From the NCBI GenBank assembly GCA_029558515.1, contig JAKQEM010000019.1:1-60095 (forward strand): a DNA stretch of 60,095 bases, in the 5' to 3' direction. Source of the stretch: a bacterium. GTDB taxonomy: Bacteria > Patescibacteriota > Gracilibacteria > Peribacterales > Peribacteraceae. Of the stretch, positions 6,275 through 50,086 are shown piece after piece. Below the pieces are notes generated by a model, which saw nothing but the letters and a program-made list of their open reading frames with translations, was not told the origin of the DNA and searched no databases. Each line of letters starts with the position of its first letter. The stretch's first letter is position 1. The position numbers and the translations under genes are program-made.

Positions 6275-6538
6275 ATGCCTTCGCAACCTGCCACCACTCG
6301 CATGGTCAGTATTCGCTCTTTTCGCGAAAATATGACCAAATTTCTGCGTGAATCCCAAGAGCATAATGTGCACTTCATTGTCATGCGTCATGCGGAACCC
6401 GTGGCGCGTGTGACACCTTTGAAGACGAAACGTCTGACTATGCGAGAATTTGAACAAGAAATTGCAGAAGCACGGGAACAGGTGAAGCGGGGAGAGGTCT
6501 TTACACAGAAGGAGATGGAGGAGATGCTTGGCATGTGA
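6275..6538 (+). CDS. Phd/YefM-type antitoxin
   Basis: An 87-residue protein. MVSIRSFRENMTKFLRE is the typical Phd/YefM N-terminal DNA-binding segment, followed by IVMRHAEPVARVTPL and an acidic, helical C-terminus that would wrap the toxin. The ATG at 6275 lies 8 nt after the -10; an alternative is the Met at 6302. The stop overlaps the toxin GTG start (GTGA). The family neutralises RelE/ParE-like toxins and represses its own promoter; the palindrome in the promoter fits this. Confidence 0.85.
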   Translation: MPSQPATTRMVSIRSFRENMTKFLRESQEHNVHFIVMRHAEPVARVTPLKTKRLTMREFEQEIAEAREQVKRGEVFTQKEMEEMLGM

Positions 6539-6801
6539 CAATCGAGTACACAAAACGAGCACGGGCGGATCTTGTACGTTTTCCTCCGGACATTTCTCGT
6601 CGTATCCTGCAGAAGATGTCTTGGTTTGCGCAGCAGGATGATCCTCTCTCCTTTGCCAAGCGTCTTCGCAATTCCGCCCGCGGCACGTACCGTTTTCGCA
6701 TCGGAGAGTATCGGGCAGTGTGCGATGTAAGTGGCGACGCGCTGCATATTCTTCATGTGCTTTCCATCAAACATCGCAAGGAAGTGTATCGCGATATCTG
6801 A
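6535..6801 (+). CDS. RelE/ParE-type toxin
   Basis: This 88-residue basic protein shows the RelE fold pattern: IEYTKRARADLVRFP at the N-terminus, a central RLRNSARGTYRFRIGEYRAVC, and a C-terminal strand ending SIKHRKEVYRDI. The RYRIGDYRVIY-like core and the HRKEVY tail are characteristic of RelE mRNA interferases. It starts with GTG overlapping the antitoxin stop, so the pair is translationally coupled. Whether it cleaves ribosome-bound mRNA or acts as a ParE-like gyrase poison cannot be decided from sequence alone. Confidence 0.85.
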   Translation: MTIEYTKRARADLVRFPPDISRRILQKMSWFAQQDDPLSFAKRLRNSARGTYRFRIGEYRAVCDVSGDALHILHVLSIKHRKEVYRDI

Positions 6802-6903
6802 AGTGTTGTCGGATGGAGGAGAAGAGGAGTTCATACTGCGTCCTCTGCCCCATGATGTCATCAATGTACTGCATGAACATACTGCCGGTATTCCACAGGT
6901 TCC

Positions 6904-7545
6904 CTATTCCCCCACCCCCTCCGATTTCAGCGGACGGGAGAGATGGCTGCTCTGAACGGTGCGGAGGAAAGCGTCCAGCGCGGGGTCGGCGGGGCAGAGA
7001 TCCGTGAGGACACGGAGGTCATTCGTGCGGGTACAGAGCAGGACGAAGGAGCGAGTATCGGGCGGGAGGCGGCTGAAGCGTTCGTCTTCGGTATGGGCGG
7101 GAAGCAACCCGAGGAGATGCAGGAGACGCAGTTGGAAAGCGGGCAACGGCCGGAGAGAGGGATCCGCACACAGCAGGATGAAGCGATGCAGCAGGTCAAA
7201 CACGGCGGGCAGCGGTTCCCCTTCCTCCGTCAGCGCGAGCAGCAGTTCCACGCCCCGTTCCGCCATCACCAACCGGGCGAAGTCCCCGGGCGGCGTCAGA
7301 TCGCCCCGGTCGGTGGCCGAGACGACGAGGGAACGTCCGTCACGTTCCACCAGTTCCATCGAGAGATGCCGAAACGGCAGGAGGGATCCGCCCAGTCTGC
7401 TCGATGTTTTTCGTACGCTCCTCGCCCGGGCAGTCACGCGCCCGGCTTCGCGCGTCCAGAACACGCAGAAACGGTCGGCCTCGCCGATATCGACGGAGCG
7501 CAGCACGATGGATTCATACGGCGGCGAACGTTTGAACGGACTCAC
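6904..7545 (-). CDS. recO: DNA repair protein RecO
   Basis: A 213-residue protein. The N-terminus PYESIVLRSVDIGEADRF followed by an OB-fold (VFWTREAGRVTARARSVRK) matches RecO, which loads RecA with RecR onto SSB-coated single-stranded DNA. The helical C-terminal half has RFILLCADPSLRPLPAFQLRLLHLLGL, the usual RecO pattern. No cysteine zinc cluster is visible, as in some RecO proteins. No ATG precedes the conserved region; a GTG overlapping the upstream FtsX-like stop (GTGA) is chosen, so translation is probably coupled. Slightly shorter than typical RecO (about 240 residues). Confidence 0.8.
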   Translation of the reverse strand: MSPFKRSPPYESIVLRSVDIGEADRFCVFWTREAGRVTARARSVRKTSSRLGGSLLPFRHLSMELVERDGRSLVVSATDRGDLTPPGDFARLVMAERGVELLLALTEEGEPLPAVFDLLHRFILLCADPSLRPLPAFQLRLLHLLGLLPAHTEDERFSRLPPDTRSFVLLCTRTNDLRVLTDLCPADPALDAFLRTVQSSHLSRPLKSEGVGE

Positions 7546-8507
7546 GCGGGCACGGCGAACGATCGACCGAAGGTGGCGCGCACGCCCAGCACCGTTCCGG
7601 CGAAAGCCAGGAGCGGCAGCAGGAGCAGTTCCGCGGCGAAGAGGAGTGGGAGAACCTGCCAAAGCAGGGGGACCGCCTCGGCCGTGAAGGCGGTGAAGGG
7701 TTCCTCCGACGCCATGGCCGGGACCAGGAGGGGAACGCTCGCGAGGAGAGCACCCGTGATGAGCATGGAGAGCACGCCTGAAAGCAGCAGGAGCGCCGAC
7801 ATCTCCGTGACCGGCGGAATGATGATGGAGAGCGGCGGCGCGCCCAGTGCGTGCTCCAGTTCGATCTCCCGCCGACGACGCGTCATGGAACGCATCACCC
7901 ACTCGATAATGACGAAGCACAGCAGCACGAACCCTGCGCCGATGAAGAGCGTCACCAGCATCCGCACCGCACCCGTCACCTGCAAAAGCGTGCGCACGGA
8001 GCGCTCCTGTCCCGTCACCGACGAGAGGTACGCGGGATTGATGACATCCTGCCAACGATCCTGCCGGATAAACGAGTGGAAATCGTCGTACGCATCCAGG
8101 GAAACGAGCAAGACGGAGAGCGTGTCCGGGAAGGGATTGTCCAGGTCGTACTCCTCCAGAAAGGCGATGAGTTCCGGGTCGCGCAGCTGCTCGCGTCGCA
8201 GGGCTTCCGCGCGCGTCACGAAGGTGACGCTACGGACGGAAGGCTGCTGGCGGAGTGCGGCGTAGAGCTCCTGCATATCGGATTCCGACGCATCGGGACG
8301 GATCTCCAAATGCAGCGCGGCCCGCCCGGTGAGCAAGCGGTTGCCGCCCTCCAGTCCCAGGAGGAGGACCGAAAAAATTTGCATCAGCAGGAGCAGCATC
8401 GTCAGCAGGAGCAGCGTGGTTCCCCATCCGCGGTCACGGACGATCTGCCGACATCCTCTGCGAATGCCGCGGCGCACTGCGTTCTGCGTATCGGTCGCCT
8501 GTCTCAT
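7542..8507 (-). CDS. ftsX: FtsX-like ABC-type permease of cell division
   Basis: This 321-residue membrane protein has one N-terminal helix (about 32-55), an extracellular domain of about 120 residues (residues 60-170, PSVRSVTFVTRAEALRR), and three more helices with an RRRREIELEHALGA loop. This is the FtsX topology; FtsX with the ATPase FtsE activates peptidoglycan hydrolases at the septum. No ftsE is next to it here, which is unusual since ftsE normally precedes ftsX. The start MRQATD is preferred because TACACT lies 8 nt upstream. It shares a four-base overlap with recO downstream. Confidence 0.8.
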   Translation of the reverse strand: MRQATDTQNAVRRGIRRGCRQIVRDRGWGTTLLLLTMLLLLMQIFSVLLLGLEGGNRLLTGRAALHLEIRPDASESDMQELYAALRQQPSVRSVTFVTRAEALRREQLRDPELIAFLEEYDLDNPFPDTLSVLLVSLDAYDDFHSFIRQDRWQDVINPAYLSSVTGQERSVRTLLQVTGAVRMLVTLFIGAGFVLLCFVIIEWVMRSMTRRRREIELEHALGAPPLSIIIPPVTEMSALLLLSGVLSMLITGALLASVPLLVPAMASEEPFTAFTAEAVPLLWQVLPLLFAAELLLLPLLAFAGTVLGVRATFGRSFAVPA

Positions 8508-30659: not shown

Positions 30660-30718
30660 GACACCATCGTAGCACGCTTGCGATCACCGATCATACACGC
30701 GTAAGCTGCGCTCCCGTG

Positions 30719-31711
30719 ATGCGTTCTCTCCTCTCTTCCATTCTCATCAGCACCCTGCTTTTGTGTTGCGGCAACGTTTCTCGTGCGCTCGCCCGGGAAC
30801 CCTCGCCCGATCGTCCGGATTTCCTGCGAGTCAACATGCAGGAGGACACGCCTGACGTGGGTGATTTCATCGTGGGACCGCCGCGCGTCTTCGTTTCGCT
30901 GCCGCCGGGCGGAGAGAAAACCGTGGAGATTGAGATCACGAATCGAGAGGGTTCCCTGGCAGCGTTCGATCTATCCACGGAGGATTTTGCCTCCAATCCG
31001 CTGCAGGGGGGATTGCCGACGTTCTATCAGGCGAGTGAGGCGGGCCCGTATCCCGCTCGTTTGTGGATAGAACCGGAGGTGCGCAGGTTGGAGCTGCGCC
31101 ACGGCGAACGGGCATTCCTCCGTGTGACGGTCCGTGCGCCGGACAATGCATCCGCGGGCGATCATCAGGCGGCACTCATCGTGACACGAGACACGGAATC
31201 GCAGCCGGTTGCGGGGTTCAACATCGTTTCACGCGTCGCTGCGCTGTTCATCATCACGGTGGAGGGTGACATCGTGCAGGACGGATCCGTGGACGCGCTG
31301 GAGTCCGCGAAACGCATTTTCTGGTTCCTGCCCGCGACCATGCGTCTGAAGGTCAGCAACCGCGGCACGGTCCACATGATTCCCACGGGATCCATCGACG
31401 TGCGCAATGTGTTCGGCATTCCCGTGGATGCCGTCCCCGTACGCAACTGGACGATTCTCCGGGAATCCGTCCGGACGCAACCCTTCGACTGGCGCCCCCG
31501 CTTTGCTTTGGGATACTACCGCGCCTCCACGACACTCACGGCCTTCGGGGGAAGGGAGCTTCCACCCGTGTCCACGACGTTTTGGGTGATTCCCATCGTA
31601 CCGGTAATGGTTCTGCTCCTGCTGATCTTCTTCGTATCGCTCTTGGTGCAGCTCTTCTTCTCGCGCTTTGAGCTCCGTCGCAAGAGTAACGGGAAGGACC
31701 AAGACGGGTGA
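30719..31711 (+). CDS. DUF916-like exported protein with C-terminal anchor
   Basis: A 330-residue protein with a signal segment (LSSILISTLLLCCG), two Ig-like domains (VGPPRVFVSLPPGGEKTVEIEITNREG is the start of the first) and a C-terminal membrane helix (about 290-315) followed by a basic tail (RFELRRKSNGK). This is the layout of DUF916/WxL-associated peptidoglycan-binding proteins in Firmicutes. It probably holds or displays other surface proteins. The gene precedes the dockerin gene by 36 bases. A GTG three bases upstream is an alternative start. Confidence 0.7.
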   Translation: MRSLLSSILISTLLLCCGNVSRALAREPSPDRPDFLRVNMQEDTPDVGDFIVGPPRVFVSLPPGGEKTVEIEITNREGSLAAFDLSTEDFASNPLQGGLPTFYQASEAGPYPARLWIEPEVRRLELRHGERAFLRVTVRAPDNASAGDHQAALIVTRDTESQPVAGFNIVSRVAALFIITVEGDIVQDGSVDALESAKRIFWFLPATMRLKVSNRGTVHMIPTGSIDVRNVFGIPVDAVPVRNWTILRESVRTQPFDWRPRFALGYYRASTTLTAFGGRELPPVSTTFWVIPIVPVMVLLLLIFFVSLLVQLFFSRFELRRKSNGKDQDG

Positions 31712-31747: not shown

Positions 31748-32392
31748 TTGAACACACACGCCCTCCCTGACCGCGCGCGAACCCGCAGATCCCTTCTCCT
31801 GGGCGGTGTTCTCGCACTCCTCGCCTTACTCGGTACGCAGCTTGCCACGGGGCCATTGGCCGGACAGGTCGACGGTGAATCCGTGGTCGTCAGTGTCAAT
31901 GTGATCGGCGCGGAGGACACGACCGCCATTGATGTCATTGCCATCCCCGAGAAGCGCATTCCGCCGTTTGGCAATGATTCCACGATTCTCACCATCGAAG
32001 TGCGAGAGCCGGGCCAGACAACGCCGCTCTCTACGACGGAGATCACCACGAACGCGTACGGCGGCTACAGCGGAGCGCTGCTCGCGGGCATTGCGCCCGG
32101 TACCTATGATCTCACTGCCAAGGGGTACTCGCACCTGCGCCTCAAAAAATCCCTCGTGGATATCTTCGAAGGGGCGCGCGTGGATTTCTCCGAGGATAGG
32201 ACGATCCATCTGCTCAGCGGAGACGTGAACTTCGAGCATGGCGACAACTATGTCAACGGCATCGATCTCTCGCTCCTCGTGAGCGACCTCCTCGGAACGA
32301 CCGAGCGTTACGACTTGAATCGTGACGGACTCGTCAACGGCATCGATCTCTCCAATGCCGTCGCCAATCTTCTTGTTCTGGGTGATGCGTAA
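31748..32392 (+). CDS. Exported protein with C-terminal dockerin-type domain
   Basis: This 214-residue protein has a signal helix (about 14-34), a beta-sandwich domain (about 45-150; IAPGTYDLTAKGYSHLR recalls carboxypeptidase-regulatory-like folds) and a C-terminal type I dockerin pattern. Two calcium-loop repeats are visible: GDVNFEHGDNYVNGIDLSLL and DLNRDGLVNGIDLSNAV. Dockerins bind cohesins in surface complexes. The start is a TTG that lies 7 nt after TAGACT. The stop overlaps the start of the following SLH protein, which contains a possible cohesin, so the two may form a pair. Confidence 0.75.
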   Translation: MNTHALPDRARTRRSLLLGGVLALLALLGTQLATGPLAGQVDGESVVVSVNVIGAEDTTAIDVIAIPEKRIPPFGNDSTILTIEVREPGQTTPLSTTEITTNAYGGYSGALLAGIAPGTYDLTAKGYSHLRLKKSLVDIFEGARVDFSEDRTIHLLSGDVNFEHGDNYVNGIDLSLLVSDLLGTTERYDLNRDGLVNGIDLSNAVANLLVLGDA

Positions 32393-35351
32393 TCTTTTCA
32401 TTCCTGCCGGCATGCAACGCTCTCTTCGATCGAGAGTGTCTCGTCTGCCTGTCATGCGGGTAATGCTGCTTGTCACACTTTTCTCATTGCTGATCGCAGG
32501 CGGATCTGCGGGCATCGGCATAGAACGTGCGCAGGCGGCAGCGGGACAGTACCTCAAACTGGCGGCGTACGATGAGGGACTCGTCTTCTATGGGGGGCGC
32601 TGCTTCCGGATGGATTTTCTGATACAGACAGATTCTCTCGATGCCAATTCCGTGGACATCGAACTTCCCTACGACTCGACGTACGTTCTCCCGTACTCCG
32701 ATGCAGAGTGCACTTCACCGGCAACACAAATTCTTTCGACGGGACTCTTTCCCGCGATGCCCGCCAATATCATCAACGACACGCGCATTCGCGTCACGGC
32801 GTACGACCCTTCGGGGAACGATCCCGTGAATACCGGTCCGGCACCCGCGCATCAATCGCTCGGGTACGTCTACTGGAAAGTCATGGCTGTGCATCCCGCC
32901 TATCCACTCTCGTACGATTTCACATACGGTCCGTACAACACGCTGGATACGAACATGGCGGAAAACGATGGGGACGGCACGGACGTCCTCGATGGCGTGG
33001 AAAACGTCACATTTTCGTTCCGGCCGGACGTCAACGCGCCCTCATTCACACCGGTCGTTCCGCTCGACGGCGCGACGGGCGTTTCCGTCACGAGTCCCGT
33101 GACGTTTGTCTGGACCGACACGGGTGCAGGCATCGATCAGAGCACGCTTGAGTTTTCCATGAATGGCGTCTCGTACGCGCCGACGCTGAGCAGCTGCACC
33201 GAAACGAACAGCAATCGCCGGCCGTCGTGCAACGGCGCGGTGAATCCGGGAATGCTGCAGTACCTCACGCTCTACACCGTGACGGCGACGGGAAGCGACC
33301 TGGCCGTCACGCCCAATGAGGGATTCGATGCATGGTCTTTTACGACCGAGGACGATGTCCACGCTCCCTACATCCAGAACGCCTCGCCGAGTGACGGCGC
33401 GACGAACGTCGCAGTCACTTCCGACATTTCCTTCCATATACTCGACTACAAAAACAATGCCGGCGTGATCCCCGGATTGGGAGTCGATGATGATTCCATC
33501 GTGGTGACGGTCACCGTCGGCAGCGATTCGCCCGTCACGTACCGCAAGGGGGATGCGGGCGTCACCATAACCGGCACCTCCGCCGACTACGCCGTGGTCA
33601 TCAATCCCGCAACGAACTTCCCGCAAAATACCCTCGTGACCGTCACCGTGGATGCCGGCGATCTGCATGTTCCACCCAACGTCATGTCGACGTACACAGC
33701 GTCTTTCACGACCATCGATTCCGTCGGGCCCGCCATCAGCGAGTATGCTCCCGAAGACGACGCCACCGAGATACCCGCCGATACGAACGTATCTTTCCGT
33801 ATCACCGATGACGGAGCGGGCGTGGACATCCACCAGACGACGGTCGTCGTCGGGGGCGTGTCCTACACATCCGCAAGCCCAAGCTTCACGTACACGGGTG
33901 ACCAAAGCGACTACGTCGTCACGATCAATCCGGATGAGAATTTTACGGGGAACCAGAATGTCACGGTCTCGGTTTCCACGAGCGACCTCTCCTCTCCCGC
34001 CAATGCGGCGTCCGCGTCGTGGGATTTCACCATCGCAAGCACCTGCGACACGTGTTGGGTGGATACGGAAGATCCGAGCCGATACGCCACCGATGCCCCT
34101 CTCGATGCGACCGTTTCCTTCCACGTGCACGATACGGGCGACGGCATCGATGTGAGCAGCATACGTGTGCAGCTCATCGGAACAGGCTCCTCCATCATCC
34201 AGAGCGCACTCACGGCGATAAGCCCGCAGATGACCGTCACGGGGACACCCGCCGATTACGCCGTCACCATCACGCTGCCCGCTTCCATCGTCACAAACAC
34301 GCCGTATGCCATCATCATCGATGCGTCCGATGGCAACGGGTTGATCATGCCGACCGTACGCTATTCCTTCCTGCATCTGGATGCGGAGACGGTGACCGAA
34401 CCCGCCGTGACTGTGACACCTTCCCCGAATGGCGGGCATCGCGGCGGGATGACGCTTCCCGCGGAATCTCCGCGCTCGTGGCCGGAGATCGTCCGTCGCT
34501 GGTTTGGGGCGGATGGCACGGTGACGCGCGAAGATCTTTTGCCGGATGCCGAAGCTCGCCGGATCAATCGTTGCTACGTTGACGGCGGTCACGAAGCCGC
34601 GACGCGCACGCACTACCTGGATGTCCCGCCCGGCGTGTGGTACGAAGAAGCGCTGGAACGCCTCTTGCGCCGGGGTGCGCTGGATGCCTCCCAACCGCGA
34701 TTCCATGCGACGGAGCCCGCCGTGCGCGCCGCTTTCGCCACCATGCTCGTCCGGCTCCGGAGCACGCTCACACCCGATCCCACCGTCCCCGTCAGCTTCG
34801 ATGATACCGACGCGACCGCATGGTACCATCCGTTCGTGGAGGACGCCGCGCGCCACGGCTGGATGCTCGGATACGGAGATTGCTACGGTACGCGTCCATG
34901 CTTCACCAAGCCGCTGCACACCGCCACGCGCGCGGAAGCCGCTGTGATGGTCGTGCGGACGTACGGACTGACGCCGCTTGGCCTCGCACCGGCGTTCTCC
35001 GATGTCCCCTCCGCGGCATGGTACGCCGATGCGGTGCAGACTGCCGCCGATCACTGCCTCCTGCAGGGCGACGCAGGCACGTCATTCGTCGCACCGGACC
35101 GCACCGTGAATCGCGCGGAAATGGCCGTACTGCTCGATCGCGTGGAACGGGATCTGCGCTACGGAGTCGATTGCGGGGTGCCTGCATCCGCCGTCGGAGG
35201 GTGGGGTGCTTCCCTCCTTCCCATCATCACTTCTTCCTCGTCTCTCGAACTATCCGTTCTTCTCCTGCTGCTCTGCGGGGTGGGGCTTCTGACGATGCGC
35301 CACCGAAAAATCAGCTTCAACAAGCGTCTATTACGTATTCATCCATTTTGA
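32385..35351 (+). CDS. Cohesin-like / Ig-repeat / SLH surface protein
   Basis: A 988-residue exported protein. A long signal region ends at ERAQAAAGQ. Residues about 60-225 (GGRCFRMDFLIQTDSLDANS and what follows) look like a cohesin-type sandwich, a weak match. Then four Ig-like modules with PSDGATNVAVTSDISF or PEDDATEIPADTNVSF starts. Three SLH modules close the protein (YLDVPPGVWYEEALERLL, FDDTDATAWYHPFVEDAA, FSDVPSAAWYADAVQTAA). A final hydrophobic helix precedes a basic tail. SLH modules bind cell-wall polymers, so this should be a wall-anchored scaffold. The start shares 8 bases with the dockerin gene; a later Met at 32412 is an alternative. Confidence 0.8.
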   Translation: MRNLFIPAGMQRSLRSRVSRLPVMRVMLLVTLFSLLIAGGSAGIGIERAQAAAGQYLKLAAYDEGLVFYGGRCFRMDFLIQTDSLDANSVDIELPYDSTYVLPYSDAECTSPATQILSTGLFPAMPANIINDTRIRVTAYDPSGNDPVNTGPAPAHQSLGYVYWKVMAVHPAYPLSYDFTYGPYNTLDTNMAENDGDGTDVLDGVENVTFSFRPDVNAPSFTPVVPLDGATGVSVTSPVTFVWTDTGAGIDQSTLEFSMNGVSYAPTLSSCTETNSNRRPSCNGAVNPGMLQYLTLYTVTATGSDLAVTPNEGFDAWSFTTEDDVHAPYIQNASPSDGATNVAVTSDISFHILDYKNNAGVIPGLGVDDDSIVVTVTVGSDSPVTYRKGDAGVTITGTSADYAVVINPATNFPQNTLVTVTVDAGDLHVPPNVMSTYTASFTTIDSVGPAISEYAPEDDATEIPADTNVSFRITDDGAGVDIHQTTVVVGGVSYTSASPSFTYTGDQSDYVVTINPDENFTGNQNVTVSVSTSDLSSPANAASASWDFTIASTCDTCWVDTEDPSRYATDAPLDATVSFHVHDTGDGIDVSSIRVQLIGTGSSIIQSALTAISPQMTVTGTPADYAVTITLPASIVTNTPYAIIIDASDGNGLIMPTVRYSFLHLDAETVTEPAVTVTPSPNGGHRGGMTLPAESPRSWPEIVRRWFGADGTVTREDLLPDAEARRINRCYVDGGHEAATRTHYLDVPPGVWYEEALERLLRRGALDASQPRFHATEPAVRAAFATMLVRLRSTLTPDPTVPVSFDDTDATAWYHPFVEDAARHGWMLGYGDCYGTRPCFTKPLHTATRAEAAVMVVRTYGLTPLGLAPAFSDVPSAAWYADAVQTAADHCLLQGDAGTSFVAPDRTVNRAEMAVLLDRVERDLRYGVDCGVPASAVGGWGASLLPIITSSSSLELSVLLLLLCGVGLLTMRHRKISFNKRLLRIHPF

Positions 35352-35413: not shown

Positions 35414-36157
35414 ATGAATACCGCACTCACTTCTCAGCGCCGCATCCGCGTCTTCACGGTTGGCATCTCCGCGGCATGCAGCCTCTACTTCCTCGCCGCG
35501 CTCGTAGCTGAACCGCTGCGCACATTCGCGCTTGATACGGAAACAGTGGAGGTGGAGGTAACCATCGAAGGTGCGATCGGCATGGCATGCGACGGCGATT
35601 ACGACGGAACGGTGGGATCGGGTGAAACGGTTTCTCTCGGAACCATCACCTATTTCGGTGACACGAGCGCCTACAGTCACAACCGCGCGGCGCACTGTCG
35701 TGTGCACACCAATAACGTATTGGGATACACCGTCTCCTGGCTGGTGGCCAGCGGGAGCGGCGGCATGTCCACCGGACATCTGATCAGCCAGTACGAGGAC
35801 GTCATCCAGGCCTTCGGAACCAGTTCCACCGTCAGCCCCAACTTCGCGCGCGAGTGGCAGCTGACGCCCGCCGGCAATACGGATGACTCGCGCTGGGGCG
35901 GGCGCGTCTCCTCGACCTCGTCGGGTACCGCTGTCAGCACAGCAATGGATTTCGGAACGGACGGAGGCACGGAAAAGTGGTCACGTGTAGCGACCGGTTC
36001 CTCCGTGGCGATCCGTACCAGCACCGCACCCTCCCAAGGCGGCCTACTCGGTGACATCATCCGCGTGGGATTCCGTGTACAGGTGGGAGCGCTCAAGTCA
36101 CAACCGACGGGTGTCTACAGCACGACCGTGACGCTCACCGCATCGGCCAATACCTGA
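35414..36157 (+). CDS. Probable abundant secreted surface protein
   Basis: A 247-residue protein with a signal peptide (cleavage near EPLRTFALDTE) and one beta-rich domain with many Thr/Ser/Gly residues. The C-terminus VGFRVQVGALKSQPTGVYST resembles WxL/camelysin-like wall-surface proteins, but the family is not certain. The gene stands alone with its own promoter and a clear terminator, a layout typical of a highly expressed surface subunit. It lies right after the SLH protein and may share its surface location. Confidence 0.7.
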   Translation: MNTALTSQRRIRVFTVGISAACSLYFLAALVAEPLRTFALDTETVEVEVTIEGAIGMACDGDYDGTVGSGETVSLGTITYFGDTSAYSHNRAAHCRVHTNNVLGYTVSWLVASGSGGMSTGHLISQYEDVIQAFGTSSTVSPNFAREWQLTPAGNTDDSRWGGRVSSTSSGTAVSTAMDFGTDGGTEKWSRVATGSSVAIRTSTAPSQGGLLGDIIRVGFRVQVGALKSQPTGVYSTTVTLTASANT

Positions 36158-49237: not shown

Positions 49238-50086
49238 TCACTCTCCGCTACAGTCCTGGGGGCACGAGCAGATATTTTCACCGGAATCACAAACCTCGTT
49301 ACCGCAGAGCATGGAACACATTCCTCTTGCTCCACCAACCGGAATCGGAGTGCAACTGCCATCATCCAGCAACGTGGAGAGCAGAAGAATGCCTGCACTG
49401 CCATTACAGCACTGCACGGGTCGGCCGGGTCCGGCAACGAAATCAAAATATACAGTTTCGTTCTCCTGAGCGCATTCACCTTCCGGTACGCATGCAAACG
49501 ATGTGCAAAGGATTCTTCCTTCACGTGCACAACTGCAATGATTGCATCCATCCATTGCTTGAAAATTTTCACCGACTGCGTATTTCTTGCCAAGGTAAAA
49601 GCATGCATTTCCCTCGGGAACAACGATGGGAGGGAGGATCTGACCGGAAGATACCGGCTGAATAGTCTTTTCCATGAGACAGATTGCGCTGCAATTATCT
49701 CCATCGGTGTTGTTTCCATCGTCGCAGGTCTCTCCGATCTGCACGATTCCATCGCCGCACCGACCCAAGTTCGACCCTTGCCGGATGGTTTCTATTTGAT
49801 CGCGAAGGTTTTGAATGACTTCCTGATCATACCGATCGATCATAACACTGACCTGAGCCCTGGTAACGGAATCATTCGGACCAAATTCTCCGTTTTCATA
49901 GCCCTTCACCACACCTTGACGCACGAGTTTAGCAACGGATTTTTCAAAAAACGTTCCTTTCTGAACATCTGAGAACATCACTGACTCATGCATCATCGTT
50001 GGCACGATCTGCGCGAGTGCTGTGCTCCCAAGTACGAGCAGGGCACCGCTTGTGAACACAATGATGTATTTGATTGGAGTGAGCAT
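49238..50086 (-). CDS. SLH protein with Myxococcus-type Cys-rich and VWC-like domains
   Basis: A 282-residue secreted protein. A signal helix (about 3-23) is followed by one SLH module (FSDVQKGTFFEKSVAKLVRQ and NGEFGPNDSVTRAQ), then CGDGIVQIGETCDDGNNTDG, a DUF4215-type Cys-rich repeat. A segment with CFYLGKKY ... CNHCSCAREGRILC ... C resembles a von Willebrand C-type domain. A final CGNEVCDSGENICSCPQDC completes it. The protein should sit on the wall through the SLH module and show disulphide-bonded domains outward. The start MLTPIKY is the Met before the signal. Confidence 0.8.
   Translation of the reverse strand: MLTPIKYIIVFTSGALLVLGSTALAQIVPTMMHESVMFSDVQKGTFFEKSVAKLVRQGVVKGYENGEFGPNDSVTRAQVSVMIDRYDQEVIQNLRDQIETIRQGSNLGRCGDGIVQIGETCDDGNNTDGDNCSAICLMEKTIQPVSSGQILPPIVVPEGNACFYLGKKYAVGENFQAMDGCNHCSCAREGRILCTSFACVPEGECAQENETVYFDFVAGPGRPVQCCNGSAGILLLSTLLDDGSCTPIPVGGARGMCSMLCGNEVCDSGENICSCPQDCSGE

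Follow-up and report, generated by a model that had tools for sequence, protein, structure and literature searches.

A probable non-cellulosomal type II cohesin-dockerin surface pair encoded by overlapping genes in a Peribacteraceae genome, and recurrence of its gene order in Patescibacteria

Two overlapping genes in a contig of 60095 nucleotides (the window, i.e. the whole stretch analysed) probably encode a cognate, non-cellulosomal type II cohesin-dockerin pair of the cell surface that works like the SdbA/CipA anchor: P0001, a small X module-dockerin (XDoc) protein, and P0002, combining a cohesin (Coh) with Ig-like repeats and SLH modules. The cluster is located on contig 31 of a 1.31 Mb genome that is 99 per cent complete, and related records are from Candidatus Peribacteria, Peregrinibacteria, Gracilibacteria and Falkowbacteria, which supports the CPR origin presumed in an earlier, sequence-only reading of this DNA.

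All four genes of the cluster are on the forward strand, in the order P0003 (DUF916-like; 30716–31711), P0001 (31748–32392), P0002 (32385–35351) and P0004 (WxL-like; 35414–36157), with gaps of 36 bp between P0003 and P0001 and 62 bp between P0002 and P0004. The open reading frames of P0001 and P0002 share exactly 8 bases (ATGCGTAA), so the overlap of dockerin and SLH genes seen at first reading is real, and translation of the two may be coupled. P0001 (214 aa: signal peptide, X module, dockerin) starts with TTG, the sole start codon that retains the signal peptide, and no clear ribosome-binding site was found upstream of this TTG; P0002 (988 aa) likewise carries a signal peptide and has a plausible ATG at 32385. 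A promoter scan, with counts near chance level, found no site ahead of the cluster and a sigma-70-like site between P0002 and P0004 (35348–35376), suggesting a possible separate promoter for P0004. The four-gene order is identical in one ortholog (G053/L116). Orthologous P0001-P0002 pairs are present in two related genomes and the arrangement recurs phylum-wide, arguing that the pairing is not due to chance.

The X module of P0001 (31916–32218, forward strand) is a 7-strand beta-sandwich in the AF2 model (pLDDT mostly about 80–90), carries PEKR and KGxSHL motifs and belongs to a family unrecognised by Pfam. This Ig-like module lies directly before the dockerin, the arrangement of type II XDoc, and P0001 has no separate cargo domain beyond the two. 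Pfam Dockerin_1 (PF00404) matches residues 158–202 at 24.4 bits (E = 3.3e-5), above the curated cut-off of 22.9 bits. Both dockerin-type calcium loops that had been picked out in the secreted protein are present on the forward strand: loop 1 (32222–32266; DVNFEHGDNYVNGID) has a 3-residue insertion and conserved ligand positions in alignment A6, and loop 2 (32312–32347; DLNRDGLVNGID) is canonical and identified by both Pfam and alignment A6. A lack of ligand positions, which would have counted against the dockerin, was not found: in the 12 relatives aligned, both loops retain positions 1, 5, 9 and 12, with a single exception (D to E, loop 2 of L117). Most members of A6, the window included, have a 2–3 residue insertion after position 3 of loop 1, and L125 has a loop 1 of canonical length. 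The segment VNGIDLS is present in both P0001 loops; clostridial dockerins are two-fold symmetric with dual-mode docking, and the repeated segment would fit the same behaviour in P0001. In a search of PDB with the XDoc family profile, the type II XDoc of clostridial cellulosomes ranks first (5k39, E = 6.8e-7; 2b59, E = 1.9e-3; 4wi0 and 4u3s also matched), with the X region itself aligned in 4wi0, 4u3s and 2b59. Fold matches of P0001 are led by 2b59, 5g5d and 4wi0, but the dockerin half is poorly modelled (pLDDT about 40) and its fold match therefore counts little.

For the N-terminal domain of P0002 (32541–33044, forward strand), first described as a cohesin-like sandwich, both sequence profiles and structural models support a cohesin fold. 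It does not match any Pfam or NCBIfam model, alone or (Pfam) within the whole protein, and does not reach the curated score of Cohesin (PF00963). The profile of its own family matches at 5.8e-50, a profile that includes this sequence. A profile of ten relatives reaches nine PDB chains, eight of them cohesin or scaffoldin entries (two of which bear the partner enzyme's name), each match being individually weak (best E 0.016). The profile search for cohesin proposed earlier thus gave a negative answer with Pfam and a positive one with the family profile. L121, a co-aligned relative, passes Pfam Cohesin (25.9 vs cut-off 24.1). The AF2 model of the domain is of moderate confidence (pLDDT 67, pTM 0.65), and its best 50 PDB fold matches are all cohesins (best E 6.8e-6), including the SdbA type II cohesin 2bm3; a different fold, which would have spoken against the earlier assignment, did not emerge. 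The Archaeoglobus cohesin 2xdh is also among the fold matches, for which TM is about 0.45–0.6 and sequence identity to known cohesins 10–17 per cent. Used alone in a sequence search, the window cohesin matches the domain just downstream of XDoc in G130:C6, G117:C4, G089:C3 and G089:C5, as well as the Pfam-recognised cohesin of G103:C23.

The cohesin is followed by Ig-like repeats (33045–34400, forward strand), confirmed as Big_5 by Pfam (PF13205; three stretches, 62.6 bits), and by three SLH modules (34614–35189, forward strand). Pfam SLH finds two of these repeats, and the three-SLH structure of the Sap S-layer protein (3pyw) matches residues 744–935 (E = 4.4e-6), covering all three modules; the first has lost the TRAE-like motif. 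Cohesin and C-terminal SLH modules in one protein is the composition of SdbA-type anchors. P0002 had been said to end in three SLH modules; the modules are there, but the translation continues into a hydrophobic helix and basic tail (35240–35348, forward strand). SLH proteins number roughly 15 in the genome, and one more of these lies in the window (49850–49975, reverse strand); there are 26 other SLH matches besides.

P0003, the DUF916-like (WxL-interacting-protein-like) protein encoded upstream of P0001, has a signal peptide, Ig-like domains and a C-terminal membrane helix. A DUF916-like gene is found upstream of XDoc in ten loci (the window, L115–L120, L125, L160 and L163; L160 and L163 were left out when the DUF916-like and WxL-like profiles were built), and this recurrence strengthens the earlier suggestion that the protein takes part. 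The family is named for weak matches to Pfam WxLIP_PGBD in three of nine members (best E = 5e-4), P0003 itself giving no match. P0004, a small secreted protein, has no Pfam match and is called WxL-like, a weak assignment, from position and general resemblance only. Its homologues occur as two tandem copies in ortholog L116 and near XDoc in L117, L118, L119, L125 and L160; most loci with an upstream DUF916-like gene also have WxL-like genes.

Among 144 related genomes, Pfam models identified 44 Dockerin->Cohesin pairs on the same strand, 192–1085 bp apart and spread over 40 of the 62 genomes having both domains, and none on opposite strands. Window-type profiles gave the same picture: a same-strand cohesin lies 74–1675 bp downstream in 41 of the 50 strong XDoc matches obtained from class and phylum samples, and none of the 50 has one on the opposite strand. 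From both counts, adjacency is the rule rather than an accident of one genome, and XDoc followed by Coh is, at the level of sequence, a phylum-wide cassette in Patescibacteria. Distances of XDoc and Coh are correlated (mirror-tree, r = 0.89), a value confounded by species phylogeny and not counted as proof, since both genes follow the species tree. In G130:C23, G174:C124, G081:C11 (L114) and L162 the middle gene encodes cohesin and XDoc together, and another cohesin gene comes after it. L114, L162, L164 and L165 are cascade loci, where such cohesin+XDoc proteins adjoin more XDoc and cohesin genes. Cohesin- and XDoc-like matches are also found in genomes of the class sample with in-frame TGA (G102, G185, G235, G244 and others). 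TGA is probably translated as an amino acid in these genomes, and the system therefore seems to be present on both sides of the code change. The cohesin proteins of L118 (6603–10379) and L120 (6497–9673) have an alpha/beta-hydrolase-like region following the Ig repeats, from a weak Abhydrolase_6 match in L120 and by eye only in L118.

Counting the other dockerin genes, as had been proposed, adds two to P0001, one on contig 8 with a dockerin-only product and one on contig 4 encoding 468 aa; the total for the genome is three dockerin proteins and two cohesins. No enzyme domain was found in the three, and ten XDoc-type proteins of relatives contain fn3, DUF4215, Ig or TSP3 repeats and no hydrolase domain. 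The contig 8 dockerin belongs to a second, divergent Doc->Coh pair (L005, G000:C8:26000-42000; about 6452–8129, reverse strand), and pairs of this type are retained in about 20 family members that were read. Its dockerin is secreted, dockerin-only and about 110 aa in relatives, and its cohesin protein has an fn3-like domain, a C-terminal PGETG-like motif, a membrane helix and an RRQ tail, an end similar to a sortase signal; three sortases are encoded in the genome. Profile-profile comparison found no detectable match between the window and contig 8 cohesins, which are accordingly treated as separate lineages. The 468-aa dockerin protein (L006, G000:C4; 6707–8113, reverse strand) has a leader (FEAMEQRNLLAGD) resembling the LEPR-XLL signal, which is common in Planctomycetes. 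It could be an alternative ligand of the P0002 cohesin, and is possibly a third ligand of a cohesin.

After secretion, P0002 would stay attached to the cell surface through its SLH modules and C-terminal helix, with its single cohesin borne on an Ig-domain stalk, and P0001, also secreted, would dock calcium-dependently into this cohesin through its dockerin, as the XDoc of CipA does into SdbA. P0001 might then act as an adaptor, its X module presenting or bridging the DUF916-like and WxL-like proteins; the adaptor role is proposed because P0001 lacks a separate cargo domain, and these two partners because they are conserved neighbours in the cluster. Of the wall-anchored scaffold for a dockerin protein put forward in the sequence-only reading, the cohesin fold, intact dockerin and SLH parts stand, while physical binding of P0001 to P0002 is inferred.

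The same binding could have a different purpose: XDoc would act as a cap or clamp on the cohesin stalk that makes the envelope stiffer, would carry no cargo and would be unconnected with the DUF916-like and WxL-like proteins. Small XDoc proteins (208–221 aa) in five other genomes (L153–L157) and the bare X module-dockerin make-up of P0001 favour such a purely structural role, but other XDoc proteins bear large N-terminal parts (fn3, DUF4215, TSP3) and DUF916-like genes recurrently adjoin XDoc, leaving it rather unlikely. That P0001 and P0002 are coexpressed without being partners, the cohesin binding the contig 4 or contig 8 dockerin protein instead, would suit a genome with three dockerins and two cohesins; it appears improbable, as the contig 8 dockerin has its own adjacent cohesin, very different from that of P0002, and window-type adjacency is kept in 41 loci. 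Alternatively, the cohesin-like domain might be an Ig-like module for adhesion or glycan binding and the dockerin a plain calcium EF-hand pair, with no mutual binding. The low identity to known cohesins and the prevalence of Ig domains in P0002 are compatible with this, but it is made very improbable by the strict XDoc-Coh pairing in gene order and by the specificity with which folds and profiles match cohesins and X-dockerins. A small cellulosome holding glycoside hydrolases on the surface would use the same parts as cellulosome anchors (PMC4045903), but was rejected as extremely unlikely, no glycoside hydrolase domain being present in the genome's three dockerin proteins or the ten XDoc-type proteins scanned.

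Beyond the cognate surface pair of the window, a broader reading can be offered tentatively, at somewhat less than even odds: that adjacent pairs of XDoc adaptor and membrane- or SLH-anchored cohesin, sometimes in cascades, form a widespread modular surface assembly in Patescibacteria, organising WxL/DUF916-type layers or host-contact adhesins, with pairs orthogonal within a cell. Most knowledge of cohesin-dockerin biology comes from cellulose degraders; conserved enzyme-free pairs in tiny Patescibacteria genomes suggest that in these cells the interaction is used for cell-surface assembly in general, a way of building the surface that is distinct from cellulose digestion and unstudied in this phylum. 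The recurrence of the XDoc-then-Cohesin order across the phylum is new; open-access full texts (subscription journals were outside the search) contain no report of cohesin-dockerin pairs in Patescibacteria, and no paper in the open-access literature combines WxL, DUF916 and dockerin. In Southlakia epibionticum, a genetically tractable Saccharibacterium, the dockerin-domain gene SEML1_0315 is essential, and its authors suggest a role with host glycans (PMC10633639); a possible alternative, which can be tested in this organism, is that its product tethers a surface protein to a partner cohesin. In addition, the Patescibacteria pairs would offer orthogonal protein connectors from a new source.

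In Clostridium thermocellum, the XDoc of CipA is anchored by the SLH-bearing SdbA, and the window pair shares with SdbA, Orf2p or OlpB and CipA the combination of an X module plus dockerin with a cohesin protein carrying C-terminal SLH modules (PMC4045903). Unlike these clostridial cellulosome pairs, it has no enzymes and one cohesin; its XDoc is a free small protein whose gene adjoins and overlaps that of the anchor; the anchor has an extra C-terminal membrane helix and a Big_5 stalk; and the locus includes DUF916-like and WxL-like neighbours and a PEKR/KGxSHL X module absent from Pfam. A single protein with cohesin and XDoc is encoded in L162, G130:C23 and G174:C124, as in the adaptor scaffoldins of Acetivibrio and Ruminococcus, whereas the window pair lacks both an adaptor of this kind and catalytic subunits. 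Cohesins and dockerins outside cellulose degradation are also found in Archaeoglobus and in ANME archaea, where they are non-cellulosomal and where ANME-2c has proteins with both S-layer and dockerin domains (PMC9012536); the window differs from the archaeal cases in being bacterial, in its conserved two-gene cassette and in having the SLH anchor on the cohesin side. DUF916-like and WxL-like genes occur together in the WxL/DUF916 (WxLIP) clusters of Firmicutes as they do here, but in the window they are joined to a cohesin-dockerin pair.
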